A DNA stretch of 64,000 nt from Rhodamnia argentea (taxonomy: Eukaryota > Streptophyta > Magnoliopsida > Myrtales > Myrtaceae): positions 11,461,501-11,525,500 of the forward strand of contig NC_063151.1 of assembly GCF_020921035.1 (NCBI RefSeq). Reading direction: 5' to 3'. Shown here piece by piece: positions 10,284 through 49,450 of the stretch (position 1 is the stretch's first letter; every line of letters begins with the position of its first letter). The notes under the pieces were generated by a model that had not been told where the DNA came from, searched no databases, and saw only the letters and a list, made by a program, of their open reading frames with translations. Made by a program: the position numbers and the translations under genes.

Positions 10284-10703
10284 ATGTTGTCCAAGTACCT
10301 GTTTACTCTGATTCATACGTAATTTAGTTTGCTAAAGTTTCTTCTTCCCCTGGCTCGGCTGAACTGGCATGCCGGTTCCGAGTTGTAATTGCAGTAAATG
10401 CTAGAAACAGTTCATACCACAGAGGATAATCAATCAGGAATCATTAGCTTGAGTAACCAACGTGGGCTGAAACAAAGTGGCCTTGCTTCTTGCTAGTACT
10501 AAGTTAAATTTGAGATAAACCCCGCAAAATCACATGGTTCAGAGACTATTTCTCTTTTGGAAAAACAAGTAGCCACAACATATTTTCCGTCAATAACAGA
10601 AGAATTCAAACCAAGCTTATACCCATAAAAAGAATTCATGGCTCACAGAAACACCTCAATAACCACTCAGTAAAAGAAAAATTGAAAAGTAGAGAAAAGG
10701 GGG
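10284..10703. other. shared 3' flank between NUDT-like gene and FLA pseudogene
   Basis: The two loci converge here. From about 10462 the sequence (GTGGGCTGAAACAAAGTGG onward) is closely repeated at 29080-29300 beside the second FLA copy, so the FLA duplication block starts near 10462. No other gene is seen. Confidence 0.6.
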
Positions 10704-12778
10704 CTACAATGCCAAAGCCACGAGCAACAAAGTAAATGCCATGAACCCAAAACTCCCACAGCAACTCCTAACACTTGCATTAGCCGTCCGGTCGGCCACA
10801 GTATTCTCTGGTGAATCAGCCGGCGCATCCGATGCCCCCATTGTTGCTGGGGCCGGTGGGGACTCGGCTGTCATATCTGGCATCGGAGCTGGTGCTGGTG
10901 CAGGCGATAGCACCGCCTTGAACAGCTCCTGGGGGAGCAGGACCTTGTCAAGTGTATAGATTGCCAGTGGCAGCTCATCAAGCAAAGTCCCTGTGATCTT
11001 CACTGTGTTGACTTTGGTCTACAGGGTCACATCTTGACCGTCGTTCTGCACCGTGAAGTCAAACTTCCTAGACCCATCGGTCGCCAGCGTGTTCATCAGC
11101 CTGTTGTTCGACCTGAGCATGGACATCGACATGTATATAGGCACCGCAAAGGACTCCAGGAATGAGGCCCTGTTGACCGCGGTTGTTGAATTTTGGTCGG
11201 AATGCTTTGAAGGGGTCATCGAGCGGGCAAAAGACCGTCAAACCTCCAATGACATTGTCCTGGAAGTCGCGATCAGCAATGGAGAATGCAACCATGATGA
11301 GTTCTTTATCGCTTGATCTTTCTCAATCAAGGAGTTAACGGTTTGATTTTTGCTCTTAATTAGATGACATCTCAAAAATCACTAACGCTTACTGCTTAGA
11401 ACATAAGACATTGCTGTTTCTGTGATCAATGGCATATATGTGAATAAGATGAAGCAACAAGCAGTTAGAGATATGCCCTAAAGCGACTATGTAATAGTTA
11501 CATGTTAGGGATTTCAGTTGTATTTTCAATTTCTTATTTAATTAATGGCAAAGACGTATTTATTCATTTGTCCAATTATTTACTTATATGAATAAATTCC
11601 ATAAGATCAGTTGTGGCTGGACCTATTCTTGAGATGTTGAGAATATGTGTGACAAGTTCACGGTTAGACCGAATCTTTAAACTGTTCCCGATCAATAGAT
11701 CATTGAATGGATATCAATGATCTTGTTGAGATCGGTGTGTTCTTGACTTCACAATTAAGTATTGGATACTTAAGGGAATGACAAATCACAGGTTATTGGG
11801 TATTGCGATGCCCGAGTTAGAACACATGTGCTTGTATTAGACAAGTTCACTGAACGTGACACGCGCTAAACGATTAGCGACATGGAAGCTTTTAGCGTGG
11901 TCAATGTCTAATCGTTCATGCTTTGATCTTGTATAAATAATCCTTAGACCTGAGGCACATTGTTGACTTGTGTGTTGGATGGCTATGATTCACGAGGACG
12001 CATATTGACGGTTTGTCGATCCGTCTTTGTACTTGATGGTCACACTTCATGCACATACGAAGTCACACATGTGCGCAAAATGGAATCTGTCTCCTTGTCA
12101 CATGCAAGGTATGATATCCTATGCGATTTAATTATGACAATGCATTGAAATCCTCGGCCGAGGTTGTAATCGAGAATAAAATGTTTATGTCTCATATAAA
12201 TGCATGTCGATTAAATTTGTGCATATGATCGAATTGGTGACTTGACAAATATTCCATGGTCTTTGTTCGATCGGGATATAGTAAGACAGAGGGATTGAAT
12301 TACACTATAGCCTAGAGCCGACGGGTTCATTATGTTCTTAAAGAATTCACATTGTTTGGGTAACCATGACATATTGCTAGATGTCACTCATGGCTTGTGG
12401 GACCTAGAGGTTAATTGGGACAATATTAATTCTCTTGGAAGTACTAATGTATTAGTGCATGTCTTACTGCCAACTCGGTGATGAACCTAGGGATGTTACA
12501 CACCTTAACCAATACATGACGACGTTAAACGGAAAGGCGATATTGTAAATATGTTTGCAATCACGACTATCGAATTAGTCGGACAAAAGTTAGATTAAAT
12601 GAGATTTAATTTTATTTTATTTTCGGTCATTGACGTACATGCATATAATGACATACACGTATTGTCCGGACACATATTGATGTGCCCAATTTGCGCACAT
12701 AAGGGTGGTGTACCTTTTGTTTTTATAGTAATAAAAATTGTTATTATTATTTGTTAAAAAAAAAAAGGTAATGCGCTA

Positions 12779-12842
12779 TGTGGTCAGCAACTACTTGCTA
12801 ACCACATAATATTATGTGGTTAGCAAGTAGTTGCTGACCACA
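12779..12842. repeat. perfect 64-bp palindrome
   Basis: Two 32-bp arms (12779-12810 and 12811-12842) are exact reverse complements with no spacer. The arm begins TGTGGTCAGCAACTACTTGC. A third, imperfect copy of the arm motif follows at about 12845-12868. An A-run lies just upstream. Confidence 0.97.
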
Positions 12843-12886
12843 CCGTCAACAACTACTTGCTGACCGCTAGTGCAGATCGTACAAAA

Positions 12887-12936
12887 ATGCACAACGCGCA
12901 CGATCCGAAAACGACATGATCGTGCGCGTTATGCAT
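12887..12936. repeat. 19-bp stem with 12-bp loop
   Basis: Arms ATGCACAACGCGCACGATC (12887-12905) and GATCGTGCGCGTTATGCAT (12918-12936) are inverted with one mismatch. This second hairpin lies 44 bp after the perfect palindrome, in the same solo LTR. Confidence 0.92.
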
Positions 12937-13403
12937 TGTAGACCGAAGAAATTAATTTGCAAAAACGTTGCAGAGTTTAGTTTTCTTAAGGGTGTGTGCA
13001 TGTGTGCGTAAAAGTATGAGAAAAACCAGAAATATCTCTTTGCACTTTTATTCTTGCATTGACCGAAAGAAAATTGAGCGTGCGAAGAATTATTCCATAA
13101 TATTGCTAGCACAATTCAAGTGGTGATTCTCGCGTTCGTTCTTCCGTTCATCGTTGCTATTGATGGTGTGTCTGAACTAGAGGCTCGACACTTATAGGGC
13201 TCGGATCGAAGAACGTCTGAACCTTTTCGTTTCAAGCACGTTTCAAGAAGCAATCCGTTAACCCTCTTAATCAATATATGATTTTCGATTGAAACGCACG
13301 AACTACGCCTCTAGAGATACATGTATGGGTTTTTATTTATTTCCGCTGCGTTTGACTATTTTATATATATTTTTTGCCTGTACATGTTATGCGAATCCCA
13401 ACA

Positions 13404-14109
13404 CAAGCCTCACTAACCATAAGATTCTGCATCACCAGAAATGAAACTGGATTTTTCTGGGCATGTCAACTGACCTTCAAGTCCAAACTTGCTTTGTTCC
13501 AATGTTTTACCTTTTTTCCCCCTTTTTTAACCCGAATATTTCACTTAAGGTGGTAATATCATAATATGGTATAGCAAAAGACAAAAAATAAGCATATGAA
13601 AGGGCTGGAAGATCAATTTATTCCATTCATTTGATTTGGATTTAGGAGGAGAACCAAAGATATCAAATTAGAAATGAGAAAAAAATGTCCCGAGAAAATC
13701 TCTAAATAAATTATATAAGTCAATTCTTCAAACAAGAAGATAAATCACTGCCCTTAACTCCACTAGAAAAATAAGCATTTCTAAAAAAGAATCACCACAT
13801 TTGCGCACTCGATCAACATGACTTTGCTAGCATACCGTGATAATTGTGTACCACAAATTTTTAAAAGAGCAGATCACACAATAATTTTTAATCATTTGTT
13901 ATTTATTTTGTGTGGCCTAAAAGAGACTATTCGCATAATAGTCATCCATACACTGTTATATAATCAATCTTCAAAGAATTAATAATCAATACACGCATTT
14001 GTTACTAATATAAAAAATAAAATAAAAAAGACCACACACACACAGAATTCTAACTTGTCCAATAAAAAGGTACTCTTGTACGGAGGGGTAAAATGCTTGA
14101 TACCATTAC
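13404..14109. other. remainder of the FLA pseudogene intron
   Basis: AT-rich intron sequence between the solo LTR's right TSD and exon 1. No coding sequence or paired transposon ends are visible. Confidence 0.5.
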
Positions 14110-14940
14110 CTCACAAGTCTTCATGGCATCAGAACTATTTGACAGCACGTCGGCGAACTCCTTGCAGCCATGCGCCGCCATCACGTCCGTCACATTCACC
14201 TGGGTCGGCTCCGGAACCAGTGCCGCCGCGACGGCCGACGGCAGCACCTTGCTGATCTGTATCACCGATATGTTGTACGGCACCTCCTCCACGGACCTCA
14301 CGTAGTACGGCCCAACATCGCCGCTGCCGCCCTCCTGTGGGGCAAAACCCACCTTCCCGCCCTTGAGGTCGGTAATGTTGACGAAGCCGGAGGAGCCCGG
14401 GGCGGAGCCGGTGGACTGGAAGAGGGTGGCGGCGAGGGCGAAGCCGTCGGTGAGCTGGTGGAGCTTCTGGGAGACGAAGTAGTCGAGGAGGACGTGGAGG
14501 GAGAGGATGTTCTTGAGCGTGGCGTTGGAGTGGTGCTCCGCGAGGAGGTCGTTCATGGCGGCGTCGGAGACGGCGAGGACTGTGATGGTGGTGCGGCTGT
14601 TGATCTCGGCCGCGAGGTGGGTGATGCTGAGATATTGGTTGAAGGTGGAGAAGTCCGGGTGGCCAGCGAGGAGGCGCGTGATGTTGTGCGCGAGGGCTGG
14701 GGAGGCGGCGGCGGCCAGGAGTAGGAGGAGTGCCGCTAGGAGGTGCGGCGGCGCGCAATGGACCTGCATTTTTCGAGAGAGAGAGAGAGAGAGGAGACGG
14801 TGGAAGCTCAGGGAGTGGTGAACAGGTTGGCGAGCTGAGCGAGATGTGATGGACGGTCTTCAGAGATTTTGAAGTCTGGAAGAGATGGTCAAAGATTTAA
14901 TTTTGAATTACGTTTTAAAATAAATAATTTTTTTTTTAAA

Positions 14941-16989
14941 ACCTCCATGACCATAATCTCATCTCGAATAAATCTCGAAAAATTAGACATACATTAGTAC
15001 CACAAAGAAAATTGACACGAAATGAAAAGAAGAATTTGGAAAATAGGAAATTGTATTTATGATGATTTCTTACATGTGCACAACGATATATAAAGGAAAT
15101 AATTTTTTTTTATTTTACAGCCAATCTCATGGATTGATTGATTCAATTAATCTATCAATCAAAGGTTTACACAATCATGGATTGAACAATTCGATCAATC
15201 CAAAATTTACGCCAATCGGGATAAGAACAAGAGTGCCATATTTTCCTAGGTGCCGCAAATTTCAAAAATAGATTACTTAAGTGACATTGGCGATTGCCCT
15301 TTCCAGAAAATCTGAGGTGGACAATTTTAGTATTTTAAAAAAAAATCCACATCGAAATAAAATACTGAAAAAATAAAAATAAAAAATTCCACGTCGCAAT
15401 AAAAAAATTAAAAAAATAATGAAAAAGTCCACATCGGAATAGAAAATTAAATAAAAAAATCTATGTCGGATGATTTGTAAGAAATGGCACAAAATGAACG
15501 ATTTTATTCTGACGTAACACTTAAAAGAGTGAAAAAAAAAAAAGTTATGGCACTCGTTCTGTTCTTATCCCTGAAACAATCTTTTACTTCGAATAGTTGA
15601 GTAAATTTCTGTAGCAAAGAGACGAAGTTAAAAACGTGCATATAGAATATAGATATTCGATAAACTAGAGCATATCCATCCATAGACCAATACCAAAGCG
15701 CCATACAACAGCTCGGCAATAGAGACATTCACAATTATTAATTAATGATTTCTGAATATCAGAGACCCTCTATATCTTTCAAAAAAAGGAACATTACATC
15801 AACAATATGATCGAATGCTAGAAATAGGCTTATTCTTATAAACTGTCATACGTAGTATTGTGACATCACAAATTTTGCCTCCATTTTCAAAAAACTATGA
15901 AATTAGCCAAGAGTTGACCAAAAAGCTGACTAAGATTTGACTGATGATATACAAGGCACAAAATTTTATAAACGTTTTAGATACGGTGAATAATTAGATT
16001 TAAGAGTGCAAAGTCAAAAAGCTGATGCATAATCTTTATTCAGTACCTATCTAATTATCAAAGTGAGATCACGGAAGTTGACCCAAAAAGAAACATTAAC
16101 ATGCAAAAATAAGGTTTTGCTCGTTGTCATGTAATGATAGACATTTTTCAGCGAACGAATGGGGATGACAACCTATGTAGCACCGACAAGTGATTTCTTA
16201 AAAAATTGAGAATTCTGACACGTTGGCACACATTGTATGTTAAATATATATTTTTATATATACATAACAAATTATCATTTTTATGTACTCCAAACATCAC
16301 GATATTATAGGTTTCTAGACCTACAAGTGCCTAAATGTCATAGCCATTTCATATTTGACATTTAGATATGATTGATTTGCAGTAAAAATGCTCGATGACC
16401 GCATATAGTAGCTTCAAACTCATAAGATCACATCATATTCCAAAAAAATGTTGATGGAAAATGTTACCCAAAACATAAAGAGAAAGAAAAAAAAAAGCAT
16501 CTCAAGGAATTGGAGATGTTGATAGCCCTGCCTCTTAGCAAGGATTCTTGCTGTAGCTTAGCCCAAAAAACAAAGAAAGAGCAACAATTCATATTGAAAT
16601 CGGTCGGATTAGGTCATTCTCAAATTTCCTCAAATGCCATGAGTTGAAGAATGCAACTACATTTCATTCAAATACTCCATAAAAATTGAAGAAAAAAAAA
16701 AAGCAATCCACATTCCACCATTAAGTTTAACAATCAACCATAAGTGGAAAACAAAACAAAAAAAAAACCTATTTCACCATTAAATATAATAAAAAGTCAT
16801 TCATTATATTATCCGCTCCTTCTAACAAAACAATGTCATTCATTATATTATCCGCTCCTTCTAACAAAACAATGGACTCTATATCTAGCTCATCAAGTAA
16901 AAAACTTACAACTTAAAGCACCTCAACATCTTCAAACATGTGAAATGCATCACTATTAATATCCCACATCTTGGTCTCTCCATAGAATA
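14941..16989. other. AT-rich gene-free spacer with small repeats
   Basis: It starts where similarity between the FLA 5' flanks fades. It contains the short inverted-repeat element at 15218-15571 and an exact 39-bp tandem duplication at 16796-16834 and 16835-16873. No host gene is supported. Confidence 0.5.
15218..15571. mobile_element. short inverted-repeat element (MITE-like)
   Basis: The left end reads GGGATAAGAACAAGAGTGCC and the right end, reverse-complemented, begins GGGATAAGAACAGAACGAG. The interior repeats 'TCCACATCG' or 'TCCACGTCG' between A-rich tracts. A related copy in the same orientation lies at 26989-27327. There is no clear TSD, so the superfamily is undetermined. Confidence 0.65.
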
Positions 16990-18236
16990 CCACTCTTAAA
17001 TGGACTCAACGTCATCAAAAGGCCCACTTCTAGATGCAAAATTTATGTACTCCCTATTCACCTTTTTAACGCTCATCCTCGTTAGGAAAGTATTTCCTAA
17101 TGCATTTCTTTCTTTGTTGGTTGATGTCATAATCCTTATATGGAGAAATTCGGGTAGGATCTTCATTGAGCCATTGATCGCTATAGTATCTAACAAAACA
17201 AAATAAGTAAGAGGAGTATTATATCATCATGTCGAAGAAACAATGACCAATATAATAGTAATCTCACATAAGTTTTGAACTTACCTAGGATTCAAGATAT
17301 TTACCAAGCAATGAAGTGGAGTATTGTTCTTACTTCAACAATCCAAAAGAATTGCATAAACCACCTTATAAAATGTAGGCTCCTCATCTAGCCTTTTCAC
17401 TTCATGCATATATAGTTTTCTTCACTTCTTCAATCATCAAATCCCACATGTCATAAACCAAGGAAAAACAAGGCCTGTCGGTGTGACAAATTCTAAGCAA
17501 GTCATAAATAGAAGCCGTGAAGGAAAGTATGTAATCAATTGAATCCCACAAAAGATGGTCCAATACCTTTTCCTTGCCACAAAAGATGATCCAATACCTT
17601 TTCCTTGACAAACCTAGCCCTCCATTGATTATTATCTCAATAGATACTCCATTTCTCACAAATAACCATGTTTTGAAGATCACTTTTTATCAACTTAAAC
17701 CTCCTAAACGTCACAATCATCGAAGCAAAACGTGTATCCGCCACGGAAAGCAACTTCACGTGAACAAACTCATTGTATATCGCTAATCTCATTGAATGGC
17801 TCATGATGAAATTTTTTATTTGCATAACATCATCAACAATCTGTGTAATTCAAATACACTCCTCATATGCTACTTGATTGGCCTTCACATTCTTTGCGGC
17901 ACAAATATTCTTCAAAGCTAGATTTAGGGTGTGCACCACACAAAGTGCCCAAACAATGGATGGAAATTCTTGCTTGATGAGTTATTCCGCGCTCTTATAA
18001 TTTGAAGCATTATTCGTAATGACTTGGACCACATTCCCATGCCCAACTTCATTGATTACTTCTTTTAATAAGTTAAAAATGAAATGCATGTCCTTCCTTT
18101 CTTCCGAATAATCAATTGATTTTATAAACATAACATTTTCATCCAACACCACCATGAAGTTAATAAGCAATCTCCTTGTGAGTCACTCCATCCTTCACTC
18201 ACAATACTTACACCCTTATCCTTCCAAATGTTTCTA
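16990..18236 (-). pseudogene. hAT transposase (DUF659 type), C-terminal part
   Basis: Fragments of a plant hAT transposase read in order on the minus strand. GVSIVSEGWSDSQ lies near 18200 and matches the 'DGWSD' catalytic-region motif. NVVQVITNNASNY lies near 18010, where the usual VTDNASNY carries aspartate, so the acidic residue is lost. Next come a 'LLSVADTRFASMIVTFRR' stretch near 17740 and an ERN-containing dimerisation-type remnant near 17100. Frames change repeatedly. The N-terminal half continues at 25082-25876, beyond the retroelement that split the gene at TSD AAAGG (18237-18241). Confidence 0.75.
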
Positions 18237-18241
18237 AAAGG

Positions 18242-18451
18242 TATTAGGAAAGTGAGCAGAAGTCCAATAACTTCACTTGGGAAGATCGCTAAGAGGAAAC
18301 TCGAACCCATCAATATATCCAGTTGGATCCACTTTCACTCAAAAACTTTAGCCAATGAGTTATGGACAAACTATGATATATTAACTGCTCAACACTATAT
18401 TAATCTTTAATGTGAGATTTCTCTAACACAACTCACACGTGCATCCTAACA
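18242..18451 (-). repeat. TRIM LTR, intact copy
   Basis: The 210-bp terminal repeat ends in CTAACA. It shares 'ACTATGATATATTAACTGC' and 'ACACAACTCACACGTGCATC' with the split LTR at 21892-22008 and 24977-25076. Confidence 0.85.
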
Positions 18452-18648
18452 ATCTCCCCCTCACGTGTAAGCACTAGTGTTAGGTTTGCTCCCCCTAAGT
18501 TTAGGTATTCTTCTGCACCAAGATATCTCAACTCAAATCTCCATCAACTCCTATCAGACCCACCCGCTTTGCTACACCATAATGCCTACCGGCCCGAAAA
18601 TCGCACCGGTTACCAAATTCCTTCCTTGAGATATTCACCAAACACCGA

Positions 18649-21600
18649 TGTCGCAACCTAAAAATTAGGCTAATGGATTATCGGGCCAATTGAATCAACT
18701 AACATAATTCGAACCCTCCCAAGTCCTACCGAATCGCAACTTAGGTTTATTCATGAAAAAAAAATATATTCAATTGGAGCCGCCACTAATCATTTACGGA
18801 AGGTTGATTAGAAACCTTAATAAAATAGAGGGAGAACTATTTTATTTCTGCGCACTAGAGAAAAATGGGATCGGGGACTTGGTTACATTAATTGGAAAAA
18901 TTAATGCCCTTCCGGTACCAATTTCGTGAAAAAGCCTTTTCGATTGATCGATGTGAATTCGATGATTAATTGGAAAAATGTGACATGAAGACCATATATT
19001 AAGCGCCCAGATGATGATTCTTTTTGGTATTTTCGGTAATAAAAACAATAAAAAAATTTGAACAAAAATAAACAAAAATGCCCATAATATACCTTTTAAT
19101 TTTCGATTTTTCCGAAAAATCCTCGCATTCCCAAAGATCCGGGCTAGAGCGAGATTTTATCCTCTACATCCTCGAGGATTCAAGCCAGTATGCGGATATA
19201 TGTATAGAAAAACAACGTCCATTCTCGCCAATGGGCAGAACACGAATTTACGTACTAAATCACATCCCATTCCACGAGATCATGGCTAAGGCGTGTGATT
19301 TAATTTTTCCGAAGGGTCTAGGCACATAGGGAGCATATATTATGGGCATGTTTGTTTAAAGATGTGCAAATTTTATAACAAATCAAAAACAGACAATCAA
19401 ATGATTAGATATGACAATACAAAATAAAATAAACACCAAATCACCTATGAATTTCGAAAATCACATGCGGATGTTGAGATTGGTAAGTAATCTTGCTTTA
19501 TCTGAAAAGGATTCCCATCTTTAAAAATTCGAGAGATTATCTTTTGAGATTTTGAAAGTATTTCAGATAATTCCCAAGTTAGAAAGAGATAACTCTAGTT
19601 CAAGGCAATCTTATCCGCAAGAGTTATGACATGCTTAGGATTTCCGAAAAGATTTCAAATTCGGATATAAGATAATCCGAATATTCCAAAAGACATGTGC
19701 AATCTTTTCAAGATAACGTTCGGGATTTAGATTTACTCGAAAACCAAGTCATGAGATATATCTAAAATCCAACAAATATATCTAAAAGTTGCATTCAAAG
19801 ATATGTACTTTATCCACAAGATTTGCTCAAAATTTTAGATAACTCAAGTTTAGGCAAGAGGAATCCTTGTAGATAATCGAGCAATTCAAACAAGTTCGGA
19901 TTATGAAAAGCAAGATAACCTTGATATAAAAAAATTAGAACTTTGACTTATCTTGAGATTGGCTTTCCAAAATTCGAACTTGGATCGTCGAGAAGCTTGC
20001 GGATATGGTGGACGACAACTTTTGCGGACAAAAGAGTGTTCACAATGGCTCTTGGTGCGGATTCATGTCAATGGCTTAGTGTCAAACAACCCAGGTTCCG
20101 TGCACGTCCTCCTCCTCTGCAGTGTTGACTAAATGTGATCTTTCATTCATCCCATAATGTCCAAGAGAGTTCTTGCATGAGTTTCGAGCATGCCGCATTA
20201 TGGGTGATTGACAAGTGACCAAGGAAACGTGAGTACATGTAAAGAATTTATGAAAAAAAAGAACTTGGGAGGTACCACCGTATCAATAAAACTTGCAAAC
20301 GAAACTAGACCAAACCAACCTTTTCATCAAGCATGCAAACAACTGCGGAAATATCGCTCGGATCGAGCATGGTAAACGCTCAATTTGGTGATCGACTCAG
20401 CGTGCCAAGCGGCATCGTCGTGGGGCTTAATTCCACGAATCTTTGAGATTCCACGAATGGCCAAGAACATCATCCTTGCGAGGCTCGAAGCGTAGGAACA
20501 AATTGCTTTCGGTGTGTGGAACTCGGAACAGCGGCCTCGTCTCGACACATGGAGGTTCATGACTAGACTTCTCGCAACAGCGGTGATACTCAGCCGAGGA
20601 CTTGGCGGGGCACACGATCACGGTTCGCTCACCGATGACGAGGACTTCAAAGTTGTGCACAACCTGACGGAGGATGGAGAAACCACGAACTCATGCGTTA
20701 TCTTGGAATCCAAAAGGAACTCATTGAGTGCTTGGGCAAATCTGAAATTTATCTGAAAATTTTGGAAGGGAATCATATTAACGTTTATAATATTACGAGC
20801 TTTGACTCAAAACTGCTGGGCATAAGTGATGTCCCTTAGACATGATTCCTCATAAAGGAAAAGCATAATGAAAGCATGCCAAAATAAAAGAAGCTGAAGA
20901 ACTCGGAACCCCTTTTGGTTTAGTTCGATGACAGCCTTGGTCTTCGCGTGGAGATTAAGCCTAGAAAGGCTCGGGCTCAAGAGTTTAAAAACGAAACAAA
21001 TCGTGATGATGATTCGCCTTAATCTGATGGCCGCGCAAAAACTTGTGGCTGCGTCGATGGAAATTTGCCTTCACCGAGATGGTCTCGTTAGAATCGAGGG
21101 AACGCCGGGATGCGAGAAACAATCAAGAACAATATCGGCGATTGCTCCTTTGGCGTCCGAATCCTTCTCATCATGTGTCATGCTCTTCTCTATTCTGCAG
21201 ACTTGGAATAATTTGCCAAAAGAAAACGAGATGTCTTTCTCTATCAGAATCTTCTCCACCTCCCTTTGGTCGTGTGCTTCTCTTCTTTGCGACCTCAATG
21301 TCGCTTATTGAATTGTGTCGCCCCCTATGGCCGTGTATTACAATGAAGTGGCCTCCTCCCCCGTCGTGTTGTGAACAAGCTCCCTATTTATAGAACAAAC
21401 TAGGGTTTCACGACTTTCGTTTAATTACGAAGTAGTCCCTTAACTTCAGGTAATCGCAATTTGATCCAGAGACAAAATATTCCATTTCATTAAGTCTTTT
21501 TCTCAATTAATGAGCATCCTTAATTAAAAGTCTTTTTCGCAAATAAAACATTAAATGGGCTGGTTTAAACTCAAATTAGACCTCAAGACCTTAATGAATT

Positions 21601-21838
21601 TTTCGGAGTTGCCCCCTAGCTAGCCGATTCTCGCTCTTTGAGCTTTGGTCCATCGCTCTTCGATTGGAATCCATTTTTCACCGCCCATCCGATTAAATTT
21701 AAATGCAATGTAATGCAATATGATGCTAAAAATAAATATGAAAAATGATTTGATTATTTTTGGTAGGAATTAAAATTAATTCCTAATTTTTATGCAAAAT
21801 AAATGACTAAAAAGATAGTCAAAATTTAGGTGTCAACA
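18649..21838 (-). mobile_element. large solo LTR, Ty3/gypsy Tat/Ogre-like
   Basis: A 3,190-bp unit reads TGTCGCAACCTAAAAATTAG at its left end and GGTGTCAACA at its right. On the minus strand it therefore starts TGTTGACACC and ends GCGACA. It is flanked by an exact 5-bp duplication, ACCGA, at 18644-18648 and 21839-21843. The terminal sequences resemble those of Tat/Ogre-type gypsy LTRs. A TATA-like CTATAAATAG is present on the minus strand at 21384-21393. There is no gag-pol, so it is a solo LTR. Short ORFs within it match nothing recognised. Confidence 0.85.
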
Positions 21839-21891
21839 ACCGATACATATTGAGAGTGGGTCACCAATCAACCAAGCGGCTCGATACTATT

Positions 21892-22008
21892 TGTTAGAAG
21901 AGTGCAGGTGAAGTCCGATACCTTCACTTGGAGATATCACCAAAAGGAAGCTCAAGTCCGAGCCTGTTGATATATTCGGTTGGACCCACCTTCACTCAAA
22001 AGCTTAAG
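21892..22008 (-). repeat. TRIM LTR, first part of the split copy
   Basis: This 117-bp segment begins TGTTAGAAGAGTG and runs into TTAAG, the target site of the solo LTR that starts at 22009. The remaining 100 bp of this LTR are at 24977-25076. Confidence 0.85.
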
Positions 22009-22924
22009 TGTGATGTCTCAAAATTTCAACGTTGGTAAAATAATTGAATTCAATGGATTTTAACCATAAATTCTAGTATGATTAATAATATTGAATTTTT
22101 GAGGATTGAGGGACAATCGATAGACATTGAATTATGGAATTGAAAATGGTATTGGATAACCCTAAGGCATTGGACAAGGAAAAACCAAGTCGAATTAATC
22201 GAGCCGTCAAACCGAAGCATCGAGACAATTTGCATCCAAACCTAGCCGTAACCAAATTTGAGTAATGGATTTACTATTTTGCCCCTAAAGGTAAATTTAC
22301 TTTTTTGCACTTGCCTTGAAATTACAATTCTACTCCTTTGCAAAATTACCATTTTACCCTTAGTGTTAAATTACCATAGTGACCTCAATTATTGATTACA
22401 AATTGACTAACTTGCACCTTTTTTATGAAATTACCCTTTTGCCCCTAGCATTAATGACAAAAGACAAAAGTCATCATTGGATGATATTTTGCTTGACCCC
22501 ACCATCACTTTATCTTCTTCCTTCTCTCTCTCTCTCTCCCCCCCCCATTCGGCCGACCACCCCGCTCTTTACCTCCATTGCTGCCCCCCAAGCTTCATCT
22601 TCATCGTCCTCCCCCGCCGCACCACCGCTAGTCGCCACCGTTCATATATCACCATCCATGACCGAGCCATCTCACCATCATTACCACCGTCCATTGTAGC
22701 CACCGCTGTCACCGTTGAGCCACCGCCGCACCACCCCGAGCCCAACCGACGTGCCCTTGATTGCCCGGCCACCATGCAACCGAGCCGCGCCTTCATCACC
22801 ATGTCGTTACCAAGCCACCCACCGAACCGAGCCACACGCCACCAACCGAACCATCATTGCGTGCCGTTCGTAGCCACGCCGCCATCGTTGCCGTTAGCTT
22901 TAATTTGTGAGTTAACTTCCTAAT

Positions 22925-23200
22925 CCTCGATTAGGATGTTAATTGCGTTTAGGGATTAGTTTAGTTAATGTTAATCGTGGTTAGAACATGTTAATCTTGG
23001 TTAATTTAGTTAACCTCGATTAGGATAGTTAACCATGGTTATGCTAATTAACCATAGTTAAATTAGTTAACCATAGTTGAGTTAATTAATCATAGTTGAG
23101 TTAGTTAACTAAGGTTGACTTAACTAACTGTAGGTAGGTTAGTTAACCGTAGTTGAGTTAATTAACTATGATTGGGTTAATTAATCGTGGTTGGATTAAA
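22925..23200 (+). repeat. degenerate tandem repeat, ~18-22 bp units
   Basis: Variants of 'TTAGTTAACCATAGTTGAG' recur about a dozen times with many substitutions, creating a series of TTAATTAA/GTTAAC palindromic cores. The array is internal to the solo LTR at 22009-24971. Confidence 0.8.
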
Positions 23201-23260
23201 TAATTATTATTGTTATTGTTATTATTTGGTGATGATTTGGTGATTGTTTTGTGTCCTTGA

Positions 23261-23261
<1 letters not shown>

Positions 23262-23297
<36 letters not shown>
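23262..23297 (+). repeat. (GT)n microsatellite
   Basis: About 18 GT units, likely polymorphic, inside the solo LTR. Confidence 0.95.
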
Positions 23298-23299
<2 letters not shown>

Positions 23300-25081
23300 G
23301 ACATCATAAGTAATCACCTAGATTGGGATTAAATTGCTATATTGAAAAATGAATTTTTGGACACGTAATTAAGGATGCAGCAGGACCTAGCATCAAACTA
23401 CCATGTTTTTTAGTCCAAAAATTCCAATATGGTGTAGAAATGAAGAATACTAAGTTTGACGAAAAACGTATGTCTCGGTGACCACGTGTGAATTTTTTAT
23501 GGAATTTTTAAGCGAGAAAAATTGCAATAAGTTGAGTTGCGAGCATGACCATATTTGCATTAGGCCAAATGCAAAGATATGAACCGGCATGATTGTCTAG
23601 TGTGCTCATAATGGAAATCATCACCCGGAGGGTGCTTGGGGACGATGCTTGATATATCCATGCCGACGGGAGTTCGGAATCACACGGCTTATCGAACCCA
23701 CCCCCACAATCCGTGCGGCCGGGAGTTCAACATCACACGGCTAGAAGGATACCGAGTCACAGCTTGTGCCGAGTCAATGCTCCTTACAAGAATACATGAT
23801 ATGTCCACGCCAGCCGAAGTTCGGAATCACACGGCTTATCGATTATCGTGCCCAATGAGACGGGACGATATCCGGTCATGCCGAAAGACCGCCAACCTTC
23901 GAGTTGTGCCGTGGCCGAGATCGGTCATAATAATCGGAACACGTGTGATACATTTTACATGCAAGACCGTGATAAGTATTATGGTGGTGTGCCTTGGCTG
24001 ATGTGTTATTTATATAATGCCATAACGGACACTATACGGGGTGTTGTGTCCCAAGGTGAGGTGAGTGTGCATGTGGTTAATGGTTGACTAGTTGAGTCAA
24101 GTGCATGATCACTTAGTAATTAGGGCGTTACGGAAGTCGCACGCTATTGATCTACCATTGATATTAACTTGCATGTTTAGGCCACTCCGAGCGAATCAAA
24201 ACCCTATTTGGGCTTAGGGCATTGATTTGCGAAGATTTTATATCTCATTTGTTGTTGTTAACTATTTTCGGGCCCTTAACCATAGAGAGCGGACCGGTTC
24301 GGTTTGGGGTGCCACTTGATCAAACCCACGATGTCACGTCGCATCCGATTCCCAATTCAAACCTTGTTTGGGAGTACCACGTAATGACGTTCTAGGTCGA
24401 AGAGGGGTTGGGGTACCTAGTACCTCACCGTTTCAAGGCCCGGTTCGTCCGTCATAGTGAGGTCCTCTTCGGGTCGATTTGAGATTTTGACAAACCTCCG
24501 AGCGCGAGCCCGAAGATCCAAACCTTGGACCCGATGGACATTGACACCCCCGATGGGGAAGTGGAGGACTTGGAGTTTGATCCAAATGATGATCCCGAGA
24601 CCTCGACCGACTACTAGCTCTGAGGAGGATGTGGACGTCGATCCCTTTTGAGTAGCTTGGAATAACATTAACCCCAACCCCGACCCAGTATTTGTTTATG
24701 GTTGCAGTAAATGGCCCCGAGGTAGGGCCTGTACATACGTACTTCCTAGGGTTAACAATAAATAAATAAAATGAGCTTTTGCTGTATGATGGTTATTGAT
24801 TTCCTTTCTAACTATCCCTGTTTTTATGTTGGTCTGGGGATGAGTATCGTTTCCGCATGCACTTAATTGAAAGATAAAATAAATGGGTCGATGACGTGCC
24901 TGGGACGTTGCCCTTAAATGACTTGAGACGTTTGGTATGGTTATTGTGTGCCCGAGAGTTGGGATGTGACATTAAGCAAATGAGTTATGAGCCAACTATG
25001 ATATATTAACTGCGCAACACCAAATCAATTCTCAATGTGGGATTTCTTTAACACAACTCACACGTGCATCGTAACAAAAGG

Positions 25082-25876
25082 TACACACAAACTCTTAATA
25101 TTTTTTTGGGTAAGGGCCACAAACTCTTAATATTTGTCTTTTCTTTTTGCAACAAAGTAGTCCTCAACAAATAATATTTTCGTGGTACATATCCCCGTAA
25201 TGTTGTGATTAGTAGCATAAGTGAAAGCGGATTGAAAGTAAAGGTTCCTTGCTAGATTAAACGGCAAACCCGCCACATAGAACATCCTAGCAATCTCATG
25301 ATCTAAATGTTCCCGTTGAGTCATGTTGAATGCATTCTCAATTGATGATCTACTCCCACTTCCAATCTTCCTTTTCCTAGAGTCAAAGGATGAATCCATC
25401 CCACCAATATTACCACATCCACTAGCTAAAAAATAGAAAGGGCAAAGGCACATTTCTAGGCGTATTACTCCTTAATCTAGTATTTACCTCTTCATTTAAT
25501 CTTTCCATCTCCAAAAGATCTTTTTTTTTCCTACTTTTCCGTGTTTTGCAATCTCTTTTCCACTTATCATCAACAAAGGGGTCCTAACTCTCATCTATGA
25601 ACTCTCAAAATCTTTTTCATAAAAATTTGCATCTCTAAGTGCAATTCCCCCTGCATCGCCATGATCAGCCAACCTAGTAATATACCTCAAAAGCAATTTA
25701 TTTACTTCTTCATTGGTGGATGTAAGTAATATTGTACTAGAAGGGCTACTGTCCATGTTTGATATCACTCTACAAAAAATAAAATTACAAGAACTATAAA
25801 TTTCATATGTATTAGAGCATGAATTTGTGTTAAACATACAAGTTTTGGCCCCCAAATAGACATCAAACACAGCCAT
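25082..25876 (-). pseudogene. hAT transposase (DUF659 type), N-terminal part
   Basis: On the minus strand, the segment near 25600-25760 includes YITRLADHGDAGG followed by ANFYEK, which resembles the BED zinc finger of plant hAT transposases. The usual CNFC cysteines are gone. The segment at about 25200-25390 has SSIENAFNMTQREHLDHEIA and GLPFNLARNLYFQSAF, typical of the region just before DUF659. The gene continues at 16990-18236 after the nested retroelements. It is interrupted and clearly non-functional. Confidence 0.78.
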
Positions 25877-29079: not shown

Positions 29080-29397
29080 TGTGGGCTGAAACAAAGTGGC
29101 TTTGTTTATTGCTAGTACTTAGTTAAATTTGAGATAAACTCCACAAAATCACATGGTTCACAGATTATTCCTCTGTTGGAGAAACAAGTAACCACAATCT
29201 TATTTTTCCATCAATGACAGAACAATCTAAGCCAAGCTTATACCCATAAAGCACTTCATGGCTCCCAGAGACACCTCAAACACCACTCGGTAAAATAATA
29301 ATAATTGAAAGAAGAAACCCAAAAGAACAAGTTAGTTTCCCTAGTTAACACCAAAAAGTCACACTCTTACCTGAAAATGAAAAGTAGAGAAAAGGGG

Positions 29398-30881
29398 TTA
29401 CAATGCCAAAACCACAAGCAACAAACTAAATGCCACGAACCCAAATCTCCCACAGCAACTCCTAACACTTGCATTAGCCGTCTGGTCGGCCACAGTACTG
29501 TCCGGTGAATCAGCTGGCGAGTCCGATGCCCCTGACGTTGGTGGGGCCGGTGGGGACTTGTGCTTCACCGCAGCCTTTGGTGACTCGGCTGCCTTCTCTG
29601 GCGTCGGAGCCGGTGCTGGTGCAGGCGATATCGCTGCCTCGAACAGCTCCTGGGGGAGCAGGACCTTGTCCAGTGTATAGATTGCCAGTGGCTGCTCATC
29701 AAGCAATGTCCCTGTGATCTTCACCGTGTTGACTTTGGTCTTCAGGGTCACATCTTGACCGTCGTTCTGCACCGTGAAGTCAAACTTCCTCGACCCATCG
29801 GTCGCCAGCGTGTTCGTCAGCCCGTTGTTCGACCTGAGCATGGACATCGACATGTATATAGGCACCGCGAAGAACTCCAGGAACGAGGCCCTGTTGGCCG
29901 TGGAGAGGTTGTTGAATTTCGGTCGGAATGCTTTGAAGGGGTCGTCGAGCGGGCAAAACACCGTTAATCCTCCGACGACATTGTCCTGGAAGTCGGCATC
30001 AGCAATGAAAAACGCAACCACGAGTTCTTTATCGTTTGGTCTTTACTCAATCAAGAAGTTAAGGATTTGATTTTTGCCCTTAATTAGATGACATTTCAGA
30101 TATCACTAGTGCTTAGCACATAAGAAAACAAAATCTCATTTCTAACTCTTCAATGACCCCAAAAACAAAAAAAAACACTGAGTAATCTCATACGGAGGGA
30201 CAAAATGGATGATGCCATTACCTCATAAGTCTTCATGGCATCAGAACTATTTGACAGTGCATCGGCGAACTCCTTGCAGCCATGCGCCGCCATCACGTCC
30301 GTCACATTCACCTGGGTCGGCTCCGGAGCCGGGGCAGCCGCGACGGCCGACGGCAGCACCTTGCTGATCTGTATCACCGATATGTTGTACGGCACCTCCT
30401 CCACGGACTTCACGTAGTAGGCCCCGACGTCGCTGCTGCCGCCTTCCTCTGGGGCGAAGCCCACCTTCCCGCCCTTGAGGTCGGTGATGTTGACGAAGCC
30501 GGAGGATCCCGGGGCGGAGCCGGTGGACTGGAAGAGGGTGGCGGCGAGGGCGAAGCCGTCGGTGAGCTGGTGGAGCTTCTTGGAGCCGAAGTAGTCGAGG
30601 AGGACGTGGAGGGAGAGGATGTTCTTGAGGGTGGCGTTGGAGGGGTGCTCCGCGAGGAGGTCGTTCATGGCGGCGTCGGAGACGGCGAGGACTGTGATGG
30701 TGGTGCGGCTGTTGATCTCGGCCGCGAGGTGGGTGACGCTGAGATATTGGTTGAAGGTGGAGAAGTCCGGGTGGCCAGCGAGGAGGCGCGTGATGTTGTG
30801 CGCGAGGGCTGGGGAGGTGGCGGCGGCCAGGAGTAGGAGGAGTGCCGCTAGGAGGTGCGGCGGTGCGCAATGGACCTGCAT
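29398..30881 (-). CDS. FLA2-like: fasciclin-like arabinogalactan protein, FLA1/FLA2-type
   Basis: FLAs are GPI-anchored cell-surface glycoproteins linked to cell-wall architecture and adhesion. Two exons (29985-30881 side: 30222-30881; and 29398-29985) with a 236-bp GT-AG intron give 415 residues. In order: a signal peptide (about 1-27), FAS1 domain 1 starting HNITRLLAGHPDFSTFNQYL, FAS1 domain 2 with GGLTVFCP and YTLDKVLLP, a proline/alanine AGP region (SPAPAPAPTPEKA), and a hydrophobic C-terminus suited to GPI attachment. Several N-glycosylation sites (NIT, NAT, NIS, NVT, NSS) are present. Compared with Arabidopsis FLA2, the tyrosine-histidine motif of domain 2 is replaced by FF. The start codon follows a CT run by three bases. 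This is the intact partner of the pseudogene at 10704-14769. Confidence 0.95.
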
Positions 30882-31003
30882 TGTAGAGAGAGAGAGAGAG
30901 AGAGGAGACGGTGGAAGCTCAGGGAGTGGTGAACAGGTTGGCGAGCTGAGCGAGATGTGATGGACGGTCTTGAGAGATTTAGAAGTCAGTAGAGAGAGCT
31001 CGC

Positions 31004-31009
31004 CACGTG
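31004..31009 (-). promoter_or_regulatory. G-box CACGTG upstream of intact FLA
   Basis: A CACGTG palindrome lies 123 bp before the FLA start, in flanking sequence shared with the pseudogene copy. The pseudogene's equivalent stretch (about 14875-14900) lacks an approximately 11-bp segment that includes the box. Function is inferred from the bZIP/bHLH consensus only. Confidence 0.4.
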
Positions 31010-31059
31010 GTTAGAGATTTAATATTGAATTACGTTTTCAAATAAATAAATAAATAATT

Positions 31060-33286
31060 CCAACCTCCAGGACAATTGACTTCGAAATATTTTCTTTACA
31101 ATTTTACTTTTACCAAGATTCAGAGGGCTAGTACCAGTTCAATCGCTTGATAAATTGGATCAAAACGTGAAAATCGTAAATTCTTACAATATTTTCGCAA
31201 GCTTGTCATCAAGGTTCGTGAATCCACGGGTCACCAATTGGGTCCTCTCTTGTCATAAGTCACTTAAGTCCCGTCGATCGAATATGATTATCTTCTTTGC
31301 CAAGGCTTATCGGTTGGAATTAACTCTCTTAACTTATGAAGCCTCCGGTATCCAAACCCTTCGTGAAAAAAGAGGAAGTTTAGGCCAAAAAACTCACAAA
31401 AAAATATCGGAAATTAAGGAAGTTGTTCTGGTCAGATTGTGAACAGGCAGCTTCCGGGCGGGGCGGCTGAAAAAACTGAAATTAAAGAAAGGGCTTGTGT
31501 GGATTGTACTAAACTTTAAGGACAATCCAAATTGGATATATATATATATATATATAAACGAATTAAAGATTGAATAAAAAGAGACTTCCTTGGGAACACC
31601 TCACGTGATTTTAGCATCACTTCCACAGAAATCCATGTGACAAAGTACTAACTTTTATTTTATCTTTTTACTTTTATTTTAATGAAGCGAGGATGGTGAA
31701 TTTTAAAAAGAAAATAAAGAAAAAAAAAATTGGACCGAAAACCACTGCGCAAGCATAGGATATAATCAGGAATCTTTTACACTTTTTTTTAGATTGCGTG
31801 ATCCTTAATCATGTTATGGCACGACCGAAAAGTTCCTTACTCCAGCACCCCCCGAGATGGGCCCCAAAGGGTGGGACACGGTTCAGGCAGCAAATTTTTG
31901 TTTTGGCCATTTTCCACTCTTGCCCAAAAAAAAAAAAAAAGAGGGGAAAATAAAAAGGAAAGGGGAAAGAATTGTGGGTTTCCATCGGCAAAAAATATGG
32001 GATAATGATTTATGACACAAATATCCCTCGACACAAGTACTCCCTCCACTTTAGCCCCGGCAAATGTGCAAAGCGGTTCCTGAATTTTAAGATAATGTAT
32101 AATATCGTTCCAAAATTTTTGGTTTGTCTAATGTGACAGCTGGAATTTTGGTACATATTTAATTCAGTCACCGAACTGAATGAAAATATTCAATATTATC
32201 CTTCCATTAATTCAAGTTCGAGGACAACATTAATAATTCCATACAGTTTATGGACTAATTTTTTTTATCAAAAATAATGGACCAAATTGAAAATGTACAA
32301 AAAGTATAAGGATCACATTGAACAAATTAAAAGTTCGGAAACCATATTGCATATTGCCTTAAAATTCATGGATCACATTGAAAAATTTTAATGTTTAGAG
32401 ACCACATTACATATTGAACCAAAATTCATAAATTATTTGTGTCCACTAATAAACATTGGTCCACATTGCATATTGAACCAATATATATATATATATTGGT
32501 CCACTAAGCTGCCACAAAGTCCAATTTGTTTTCTTGGGCAGTTAAACTGTACCCGCATAAAACCCTTATATTGGTCTGGATACCACCTGACCTCAAAATG
32601 AAGACCCATTCCCTACCTCTCCATACTTTGACAATGTGTAATATGCCTCGTTTTCTCCTTCATCGTGGTCCGCAACACCAGATCAAGGTTGGGAGCCTCA
32701 TATCGGCCATGGACGATCTCAACCTCCACGGTGGGTCCTGAACTCAAATTCGAGGTTGCGAGCAACGATGGGGCCTCCATGGCCGCTCGTGGCCTCGAAT
32801 CAATGTACCGAGCTATAGCCAATGTCGCATGTATGAACTGTGAAGCTCACATGGAGATCTTTGCAAGAAGCGTGGCGTAGGGCGAGGGAGATCGTAGAGG
32901 GAGGAGATAGAGTGAGCAAAGAGAAGCCAGAGACAAAGAGATGCCGGTGGATAGAGATGGGGGGGGAGCGGTGGCGGACGATGGTGGCCCTTGTGGGCGG
33001 TGGTGGAGAGACTATGGTCTTTTGGGGGAGCGAGGTTAGAGGCTGTGGGTGAATTTGTGGGCTAGTGAAGAAGCATCATTGTTGGAGGCACTTGTTAACA
33101 TATTAATCGTGAAAATTTCATGGTTTTCATCATATTATGTGTATTTAATATTTACTAGTTCAAAAATTAAAATATTTCATGTTTTTGTATTGGAGACCAT
33201 ATAAAGTATGCTAATAGAGTACATCAGGAGCACTTACTAACAATATCATTTTTTTAATTATAAAAGAAGAGATTCATTCTTATTAA
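31060..33286. other. gene-free spacer
   Basis: It contains a TA microsatellite (31536-31556) and a region (about 32040-32500) of repeated phrases such as 'GACCACATTACATATTGAACC' that looks like an old repeat with unresolved ends. ORF-like frames at 32526-33052 lack recognisable domains. No gene is supported. Confidence 0.45.
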
Positions 33287-40318: not shown

Positions 40319-41402
40319 AGGTTCTCCATGCTCGACAAAGACTAAGCGCCTTAGAGAACAAAGAAAGGGGAGATCTTCCATCACATCCAAAAAACAAAAC
40401 TTAATAAATACTTACTCCCACTTCTATTATCATCACCAATCACTTACTCAACATAAGATGAAATTATTAAGATTGATTTACAAAATGGTTTGCAGAGTGA
40501 CGTGTCAAATTGCTATTGGCTCTTGATGCTAGGAGCGCACGATAGTAACCTAATACATTCACTTTGGGAGATGGCAAAGGGAGAGTTCAAGTGCTGACCT
40601 ATCAACACATTAGACCGGACCCACCTTCACTTAAAAGCTTAAATCAATGAGTTATAGGCCAGCTAAAATTAAACTTGTCAAAATGTGTCGTAAATTCATT
40701 TCTTAACCCATATATAATGGGTCGAGTTGATGTATGAACGAGTTATATTTAATAAATGGGTCATAAATAAGTTTAAACATAATATAACTGTTAAATGGGT
40801 CATGAATTAATCGTACATGGGTTTACAATTTACCATCAATCCACCTCTATGACTCTCTTTTTGTTCTCTCTTGCCATCACTCGATCTGATGCTTACTCCG
40901 CACTCTCACCTACGTTTGGGTATGAGTTTTCCTAAATTAGATTAAATATAAAAGTATTTTGAAAATATGTGTCGGGACAGGTTAGATATGAATTGAGTAT
41001 GTGTCCCTAGATTTTGCATTGCATGAAAATGGGTTAAATGAATCCATTTGGGTAGGATCATTTTCGACTCAAGCCACTCGTTTGATGAGTGAATGTGGAA
41101 CTGGGATATATTAACTAAAACACAACTCACTTATGTCCGAAGAGTTGAACACTACCCACTTGCTTGAAGGGTCACTAACATCGCTTAGTAAACTAATTTT
41201 GTAGATCAGCCTCACTGAATCTGGGATGGTTCATTTTTTGAACAAGAACCTTCGACGCATGCGGACCAAAAGGCAAAATCACTGGTCTGGCTGGGCTCAT
41301 ATTGGGTAGTTGGGCCTTCATTTTCGAATCCACTTTCTCCCTGCAATGCCTACCCTTTTAATAATACTACTCAAATAAGAGGCTCTAAGTACTTTTGCTA
41401 AG
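40319..41402. other. spacer with a degraded TRIM-type LTR fragment
   Basis: The stretch near 40550-40670 ('CACTTTGGGAGATGGC', 'ACCCACCTTCACTTAAAAGC', 'AATGAGTTATAGGCCAGCT') and the stretch near 41095-41135 ('ACTGGGATATATTAACTAAA') match the TRIM LTR at 18242-18451. About 430 bp of unrelated AT-rich DNA separates them. No TSD was found. Confidence 0.45.
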
Positions 41403-47622: not shown

Positions 47623-49450
47623 ATGCCATCCCTCTATGTCTTTGCCTTGGTGATGCTACATGTTGTGACTCAGACATCCTCTGCTCGTTCGATGATGGTG
47701 CCAACATCGGAAATGGCCGAGTGGTAAGTGCCTATAACTTGATCTTGTGGCCAATTCGTTAACACACGGCATCATCACTTGGAAACAAACTCTAGATGCT
47801 TTGTTCCCATCACGTTGTCGTAAGTTTTGCCGCTAAATTCAAACATGATCAGGAATACAACTCGAAGGCAGCTTGGGACGGGATCGTGCCGAACGGGGAA
47901 TCCTATTGACGATTGCTGGAGGTGTGACCCTGACTGGGAATCAAACCGAAAGGTCCTGGCTGACTGTGCTATTGGGTTTGGCCGCAATGCTGTGGGTGGA
48001 CGAGACGGCAAAATCTACGTCGTGACCAAATCCTCCGATGATCCCGTGAACCCGCCGCTGGGCACCCTGAGGTACGGCGTGGTTCAGGAAGAGCCCCTGT
48101 GGATCATCTTCGATCACGACATGGTCATCAACCTCGAGCAGGAGCTCGTGATGAACTCGTACAAGACCATAGACGGGAGGGGACACAACGTCCAAATATC
48201 GGACGGCCCGTGCATAACCATCCAAAATGTGAGCAACATCATCATACACAACATCTACATTCACGATTGCGTGCCTGCAGGGAATGCTCTAGTGAGGAGC
48301 TCCCCGCAGGTTGTCGGAATGAGAGGCACGTCAGATGGCGACGGCATATCCATATTCGCGTCCCGTGACATATGGATTGACCATTGTACCTTGGCTAGCT
48401 GTCGCGATGGGCTGATAGATGCGGTTATCAGCTCGACGGGCATGACCATCTCGAACAATTACATGTTGCATCACAATGAAGTGATGCTAATGGGTCATAG
48501 TGATGACTATGTTGATGACAAAAATATGCAAGTCACCATTGCTTTCAATTTTTTCGGTGAAGGCCTGGTTCAAAGAATGCCAAGGTAAAAACATTTAGTT
48601 GTGCAAAGTTTTGTGATGGAGAGAAAGTTCTCGAGGGTAAGCACCAAAGCATCATTCTTTGTTGGCCGTGTGTATTTGCAGGTGTAGGCATGGATACTTT
48701 CACATTGTGAACAATGTGTACAGTGGTTGGGAGATGTATGCGATCGGAGGAAGCGCTAATCCGACTATCAACAGCCAAGGAAATGTCTTCATTGCATCGA
48801 ATAGTGAGCGCACCAAAGAGGTGAGTTTTAATCAACATGCTGTAGGTTTTTGGGGCCAGGAATCTTTTTCCCGGTCGTTGCCGATATGAGGTATTCCTAG
48901 CTTCGAATCAACTTAGATCAATGATGGACCAAACCGAGCTCAGAATGCACTCACGTAAAACTGCTCGCACGACGACGACATTTAAGTAAAACCTGAAAAG
49001 GCCGCCTTTGAAAATTTAGTCCTGGGAGGCCAGATCTAGGAGGAGAGCCAACTGCAGAAGCTTGTCCTAAATATTGTTAATTAAACCCTGATCCTGCTTA
49101 ATGGCTGAAAACTATGGCCTGGTGGCATTGTCGGGCCTCCCGGAGCCGCCTAGGTTATGATTAACTCTGTACCACGAGAACACTTATATATGGCTTCGAC
49201 CTTGCTTGAATCTTCTTTTGGTTAGGTGACCAAGCGAGAAAGTACAGCTGGAAATTCAGAGTGGCAGAACTGGAATTGGAGATCAGACAGAGATCTGATG
49301 TTGAATGGTGCCTTCTTTACACCTTCCGGGGAAGATTCTGCTTCAAGTTACTTGAAGGCATCGAGCATGGTGGCGCGGCCGGCTTCCCTGCTGACTGCTA
49401 AGGAGCCGAGTGCCGGTGCTCTTATTTGTCAGATTGGTGAGCAATGCTGA
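47623..49450 (+). CDS. secreted pectate lyase (PL1 family)
   Basis: It cleaves de-esterified pectin by beta-elimination in the cell wall and needs calcium. Four exons (47623-47723, 47853-48584, 48682-48820, 49226-49450) with GT-AG introns encode 398 residues. A signal peptide (about 1-21) precedes [17 protein letters not shown] and LADCAIGFG. The beta-helix core includes [37 protein letters not shown] and [20 protein letters not shown]. The catalytic RxPxxR motif is intact (R275, P277, R280, in QRMPRCR). [20 protein letters not shown] follows, and the C-terminus ends [11 protein letters not shown]. Two positions usually conserved differ: AFNHFGEG reads AFNFFGEG, and VNND reads VNNV. A plant PL1 enzyme is certain; whether it is fully active is not. 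Confidence 0.94.

Follow-up and report, generated by a model that had tools for sequence, protein, structure and literature searches.

The window analysed here is a 64,000-nucleotide stretch of the Rhodamnia argentea genome (C2:11461501-11525500). Its 18,237-25,081 region, for which coordinates are given in window numbering, holds a stack of retroelements whose existence is confirmed: a hAT transposase gene is split by a terminal-repeat retrotransposon in miniature (TRIM), and the TRIM is itself split by two solo long terminal repeats (LTRs), LTR-A and LTR-B. LTR-A is a hybrid, in which the upstream segment (U3, the unique 3′ region) belongs to one lineage and the remainder (R-U5, the repeat and unique 5′ regions) to another. 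A preliminary description of the locus, made from the sequence alone, is partly supported: LTR-A is indeed a solo LTR with an exact duplication at its borders, but its hybrid nature had been overlooked. The searches covered the 346.7-Mb genome in 74 contigs, with only the best 40 candidates scored per query; L-numbers denote fetched genome regions, and the empty sites read are paralogous, not orthologous. The components of the stack are as follows.

16608-18236, minus strand: 3′ part of the hAT gene, with DUF659 pieces (PF04937, E 0.0043, 1.3e-19 and 1.9e-5; paralog alignment)
18237-18241, no strand: left target-site duplication (TSD) AAAGG of the TRIM; a single AAAGG at the site in L045, L046, L047, L051 and L060
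18242-18451, minus strand: TRIM 3′ LTR, with outer end ...TAATA, not ...TAACA (LTR alignment and copies)
18452-18462, minus strand: polypurine tract (PPT) of the TRIM, GAGGGGGAGAT (copy layout)
18452-18648, minus strand: TRIM interior, PPT side (genome copies)
18649-21838, minus strand: LTR-A, 3190-bp hybrid solo LTR; TSD ACCGA at 18644-18648 and 21839-21843
21844-21891, minus strand: TRIM interior, primer-binding site (PBS) side (genome copies)
21878-21889, minus strand: worn PBS of the TRIM, TAGTATC-GAGCC, which we take to be of the initiator-methionine tRNA (tRNA-iMet) type (copy layout)
21892-22008, minus strand: TRIM 5′ LTR, inner part, 84/108 identical to the 3′ LTR
22009-24971, plus strand: LTR-B, 2963-bp solo LTR, probably of a Ty3/gypsy-like element; TSD TTAAG at 22004-22008 and 24972-24976
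24972-25076, minus strand: TRIM 5′ LTR, outer part (including TSD TTAAG), 90/105 identical to the 3′ LTR
25077-25081, no strand: right TSD AAAGG of the TRIM, an exact repeat
25086-25117, no strand: 32-bp insertion made up of an 18-bp direct repeat and 14 further bp, private to this copy and missing in the hAT paralogs read
25118-25802, minus strand: 5′ part of the hAT gene (homologous to L045 804-1490), 83-86% identical to L045, L046, L047 and L051

The nested stack and its order

The three exact 5-bp TSDs claimed for the TRIM, LTR-A and LTR-B are all exact in their places, and both nested units run from TG to CA. The corresponding empty sites are found in other copies in the genome. At the TRIM site, where AAAGG occurs once in the five paralogs named above, 23 of 24 hAT paralogs are contiguous, their matching halves lying -3 to 8 bp apart; the exception, L064, has 59 bp of other sequence there. 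At the LTR-B site, TRIM copies are continuous in the 38 LTR rows printed, the site itself being altered in one row from L027; across the LTR-A site, 12 of 14 interior rows are continuous, with L013 and one L016 row differing on one side. A genome search for parents of the solo LTRs, which had been suggested earlier, returned full-length relatives of both. The exact TSDs, the paralogous empty sites and these relatives uphold the proposed order, i.e., the hAT gene, then the TRIM, then the solo LTRs.

Nesting alone gives no order for the two solo LTRs. The end branch is 0.10 for LTR-B and 0.038 for the U5 end of LTR-A, and the main parts of LTR-A lie at Kimura two-parameter (K80) distances of 0.023 (U3 to L120) and 0.025-0.027 (R-U5 core to L070 and L071) from their relatives. 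This divergence suggests, without proving it, that LTR-A was inserted after LTR-B.

hAT transposons have terminal inverted repeats and make 8-bp TSDs. In the gene at this locus, three pieces to the left of the TRIM cover positions 25-143 of the 152 in the DUF659 profile, only the middle one exceeding the Pfam cut-off. The right half has no meaningful Pfam match and aligns with the initial portion of the same paralogs; the homology starts at 25118 in 21 of 24 of these and at 25111, 25121 and 25079 in the remaining three. One paralog, L045, has a 540-codon stop-free frame with DUF659 (2.8e-50) and, further on, Dimer_Tnp_hAT (4e-12); a PDB sequence search with the hAT paralog had no match at E values up to 1. 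In the window copy, the paralog alignment reveals a deletion of about 230 bp near 16979-16987 that removes most of the dimerisation domain (PF05699 lies at L045 2713-2928, and the absent stretch is about L045 2733-2958). Removal of the TRIM had been said to rejoin the two halves of the transposase. Both halves do align to the same paralogs, but no open frame results: because of stops, the private 32-bp insertion and the deletion, no readable gene is obtained. The gene is dead and split, as had been described, but its further damage had escaped notice.

By coordinate arithmetic, the TRIM has LTRs of 210 and 217 bp around a 245-bp interior, in agreement with the earlier estimate of 210-217 and about 240 bp, and measures 0.67 kb (<1500 bp). 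When aligned piecewise, with the split LTR left unjoined, its LTRs are 90/105 identical in the outer part and 84/108 in the inner part (K80 0.221 over 210 sites), and the two are sisters in a neighbour-joining tree of 24 LTRs. Their distances to some other copies (0.184, 0.195) are similar to that between the partners, and 2 of the 11 other copies that gave LTR pairs are equally divergent (L018, 0.232; L021, 0.219). The divergence of the pair, comparable with that in other copies, points to an old TRIM copy.

The TRIM LTR query gave 42 genome matches including itself (best 40 of 423 candidates scored), and the interior query gave 43 (best 40 of 248). Among the 20 regions fetched, 14 were laid out, i.e., all but L015, L016, L017, L023, L024 and L025. 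On inspection by eye, with the copies oriented to the minus strand of the window, all 14 have a TGGTATCAGAGC-like site after the first LTR, and 12 have a purine tract like that of the window copy before the second (not L013; in L026 the second start is not fixed). LTR starts are 396-562 bp apart in 12 of the 14, 309 bp apart in L014 and not fixed in L026. These copies share the LTR ends of the window copy and settle that the TRIM lies on the minus strand; the preliminary description had placed the PBS-like site and the purine tract at the wrong ends. A plus-strand TRIM was rejected: its interior start scores 3 against the PBS that we take to be that of tRNA-iMet and the minus-strand start scores 8, a score attained by 96 of 20,000 random window 25-mers, and the genome copies confirm the minus strand. 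In the window copy, the purine tract is intact and the primer site worn.

TSDs in the 14 copies are exact at 5 bp in seven, 4/5 in three and uninformative in four (three array-like parts, one cut). Two of the exact cases, L011 and L012 (C3, 1.26 Mb apart), have identical flanks and TSD, and probably represent a segmental duplication, not two insertions. Rearranged copies also occur: L027 has three LTRs, L016 several LTR pieces and L025 a repeated interior, and an LTR adjoins another TRIM copy's purine tract in L013 and another copy's primer site in L018. Tandem LTR elements, with which these may be compared, are described in the available part of PMC11899658. As in the TRIM elements of Gao et al. 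2016 (PMC4717578, in the excerpt available), the element is shorter than 1500 bp, has two LTRs and occurs in several copies with different TSDs, and its interior is too small for a retrotransposon protein. Nothing differs in kind; the window copy is unusual only for the two solo LTRs inside it. A literature search on TRIM and Myrtaceae gave nothing of use among the results listed. A short sequence similar to the inner half of the TRIM LTR (74% over 91 bp) lies elsewhere in the window, at 40553-40642.

The LTR-B query gave 42 rows besides itself (best 40 of 456 candidates scored). A full-length relative has 9.9 kb between LTR ends, with TSD AGCCA, PBS TGGTATCAAAGC and PPT AAGGAGGGGAGAAT. This relative, L038, contains RVP_2 (1.2e-20), rve (0.0016, below the Pfam cut-off) and SH3_Tf2-1 (2e-24) in that order, and this succession of protease, weak integrase match and SH3 suggests a Ty3/gypsy-like parent for LTR-B. 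The single short piece scanned of the protease-integrase stretch, where reverse transcriptase would lie (L038 1452-1877), gave no match. Two further relatives, L040 (C3:35534900-35542000) and L041 (C3:25098400-25105500), measure about 3.06 kb from LTR to LTR and have almost no interior.

LTR-A belongs to a large group, with 2327 candidates for one end (best 40 scored), and its full-length relatives include one at C11:4781177/4791884 with TSD ATCAA. Both ends of LTR-A match LTR ends of full-length relatives, and the idea that it is an undescribed complete element was rejected. Eight close LTRs were aligned: two flank a single full-length element, and the other six are solo, with exact TSDs in three and 4/5 TSDs in three. 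Open-reading-frame pieces from L035 and L042 yielded G-patch, DUF7745 and plant mobile domains, and no reverse transcriptase or integrase match was found in the seven pieces scanned. L042 (C3:26211900-26219900), with plant-mobile-domain/DUF7745 and G-patch open frames, looks deleted, and one of its LTRs is apparently truncated. The parent of LTR-A may have been Ogre/Tat-like.

Two lineages joined in LTR-A

LTR-A consists of two segments, here called lineage X and lineage Y1, that meet just downstream of the TATA box in element orientation.

21359-21838, minus strand: U3 segment, lineage X; 94-97% identical to 24 of 39 other scored places (query 21380-21838)
21385-21392, minus strand: TATAAATA box (TATA box), read in element orientation
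21353-21358, minus strand: U3/R switch point; the TATA box begins about 35-40 nt before it (junction comparisons)
18649-21352, minus strand: R-U5 segment, lineage Y1; 94-100% identical to L070 and L071 in 150-bp tiles over 19249-21348

In 150-bp tiles along LTR-A, the relatives change at about 21349. The middle is matched by copies on C5 and C4 at 98 and 97%, and the U3 end by a different set, the 24 places listed above. A 401-bp junction query (best 40 of 134 candidates scored) recovered LTR-A and a single further full match, L070 at 83%, which has a distantly related U3; of the remaining matches, three end at query positions 227-229 and 35 begin at 158-259. Among these scored copies, none besides LTR-A has the X/Y1 join at high identity. 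The G run at the U3/R join (21353-21370; L120, L121 and L124-L131) varies in length, with five in LTR-A, seven in L125 and L126, and two in L129; RNA cap copying or several start sites could produce such variation. A second drop in similarity occurs at about 19250, the last 600 bp of U5 being less like L070 and L071, and a further template switch is possible there. A bacterial promoter scan of U3 was set aside as uninformative for a plant.

The mosaic might belong to an ordinary nested stack if an X-Y1 family had been missed by the searches, and an intact family could escape when only the best 40 candidates are scored. Against this, copies spanning the junction should rank high in the junction query, where the one full match reaches 83%, and the L072 junction query (best 40 of 136) found no spanning copy but itself, its other matches being four by R-U5 only, including the window LTR-A, and 35 by U3 only. 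We regard a missed family as unlikely. LTR-A could also be the product of ectopic recombination between two separate elements, each end coming from a different insertion. Its two ends are of different lineages, as this would require, but ACCGA is exact on both sides, and TRIM copies are continuous at the site, with ACCGA present once or as a variant, in 12 of 14 rows. Ectopic recombination is, in our judgement, very improbable.

Exchange across the U3/R join extends beyond LTR-A. Five copies with matches of more than 700 bases to its middle (LTR-A, L070, L071, L072 and L116) have five different U3s; 15 places match the middle, of which these five were counted, four more were compared (L113, L115, L117 and L118) and six lie outside the comparison. 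The reverse arrangement is found as well. Eleven LTRs with the LTR-A U3 (eight read, plus LTR-A, L120 and L121) are identical at 28 or 29 of 29 positions around the TATA box, and their R-U5 segments fall into eight classes (BLAST, E 1e-5, 90 nt) that are mutually unalignable over that span. Over the 3.46 kb compared, L120 and L121 have only a 485-bp stretch of U3 in common, at 96%. In most of these LTRs, about 30 nt are common at the start of R, GAGGCCA...AATACACGGCCA, as judged by eye.

A U3 that evolves far faster than a constrained R-U5, with no recombination at all, would account for one R-U5 with many U3s, and U3 is the variable part in crapaud of Podospora according to the available text of PMC10787394. 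This is not, however, what the 11 LTRs show, since in them one U3 (94-97%) stands on eight R-U5 classes, and L120 and L121 agree in U3 only. We consider differential rates extremely improbable as the explanation.

The position of the exchange was compared across 16 LTRs (120 pairs, matches of at least 85%; pairs reuse LTRs and are not independent). Twelve pairs share R-U5 only; counted from the first T of the TATA box, the shared stretch begins at +26 to +37 in 11 pairs and at +1 in the twelfth. Six LTR pairs match through the junction.

Origin of the hybrid

The LTRs of two probable full-length elements with LTR-A-type U3, matched up by spacing (9.3 and 12.3 kb) and strand, were compared. L130 and L132 are identical at 164/164 positions from the TATA box on, and L124 and L133 at 164/169 with one gap. 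In both element pairs examined, therefore, the two LTRs have the same hybrid junction; a change after integration would touch only one LTR, so the hybrid was likely formed before integration. The competing view is that LTRs already integrated became hybrid when gene conversion acted between different lineages. LTRs are known to undergo gene conversion among themselves, and the crapaud paper (PMC10787394), in its available part, invokes it for full copies with disparate LTRs. It is disfavoured here by the two matching pairs, and it does not predict the clustering of R-U5-only starts downstream of the TATA box; we think it quite unlikely.

We consider it very probable that the locus is a nested stack whose LTR-A became a hybrid through first-strand transfer between co-packaged RNAs. 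The events run as follows. A hAT transposase gene of a multi-copy family was struck by the 0.67-kb TRIM, on the minus strand. Two long-LTR elements then entered the TRIM, that of LTR-B (plus strand) in its 5′ LTR and that of LTR-A (minus strand) in its interior, and each would later have been left as a solo LTR once its two LTRs had recombined. The source element of LTR-A would already have had hybrid LTRs: strong-stop cDNA (R-U5) from the RNA of one lineage would have jumped to the R of a co-packaged RNA of the other, and its extension into the U3 of that second RNA would have joined U3 X to R-U5 Y1 near the transcription start. In plants, transcription starts about 30-35 nt from the TATA box.

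Several observations weigh against first-strand transfer or complicate it. The presumed transcription start is placed by TATA spacing alone. The parent of LTR-A is gone, and its hybrid state at integration would follow from that of relatives. Sharing of U3 only (14 pairs) ends at varying positions, from -41 to +66. The R-U5 classes were compared over 90 nt, and the U5 end of L121 is 82% like that of LTR-A over 221 bases, so the R-U5 types may align again further downstream. The U3s of LTR-A and L070 are distantly related (78% over 184 nt), so U3 types are not all unrelated, and the step near 19250 may mean that LTR-A had more than two sources. As for the stack, the per-LTR divergence of the TRIM (0.09-0.13) exceeds the end branch of the hAT copy (0.072-0.075; L067, a short match, was left out of the second hAT tree), though the hAT split should be older. 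We assume that unequal rates explain this mismatch, and because the two divergences disagree, no absolute ages are given.

Context, parallels and meaning

Elsewhere in the window, duplicated fasciclin-domain gene sequence lies at 10462-14954 and 29081-31076 on the minus strand (86-93% identical; in one copy, two parts are about 2.7 kb apart). An open frame with a pectate lyase domain occupies 47824-48585, and a 64-bp stretch at 12779-12842, possibly a simple repeat, fully matches its own reverse complement. Rfam at the gathering threshold and a tRNA scan gave no match in the window.

Exchange of LTRs between elements is reportedly the subject of work on LTR swapping in soybean by Du et al. in 2010, to go by its title. 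For Onsen in Arabidopsis, the available part of Sanchez et al. 2017 (PMC5668417) states that most LTR recombinants fit a first template switch in R. There, as here, new copies have LTRs from two parents, but the Onsen hybrids formed within one family in an induced burst, whereas in the present elements the R-U5 segments are unalignable past the start of R (over 90 nt) and one U3 occurs with eight R-U5 types. A first-strand template switch is likewise proposed for crapaud (PMC10787394, available text), where the variation is confined to U3 upstream of the TATA box, with R and U5 conserved; in the present elements, exchange affects both sides. Hybrid LTRs of yeast Ty1/Ty2 are cited in the same text. 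In rover of Drosophila (PMC12992720, in the part available), mixed LTR types are ascribed to strand switching between co-packaged RNAs, but a single rover insertion has 5′ and 3′ LTRs that differ in type, whereas the pairs examined here match. Within the literature searched, two-way exchange between barely alignable segments looks new.

As a nested stack, the locus is an ordinary case of plant genome decay. More can be learned from the hybrid LTR, which would record the site of a copying switch, close to the expected cap site. If one U3 stands on eight transcript starts and one start stands under five promoters, cross-lineage copying of co-packaged RNAs would be frequent, and promoter exchange could then be counted genome-wide without experiment. 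This calls for caution where whole LTRs are used to classify such elements or to date families. A further possibility, which we put forward tentatively and think rather doubtful, is that R-U5 and U3 are inherited separately, the first strand being transferred in most cases to a second RNA, which may belong to another lineage, with no more than about 30 nt of shared R needed. If this is true, R-U5 would act as a module, acquiring another promoter and probably also another body in nearly every round, and LTR-based families and LTR trees would not describe real lineages in these elements.

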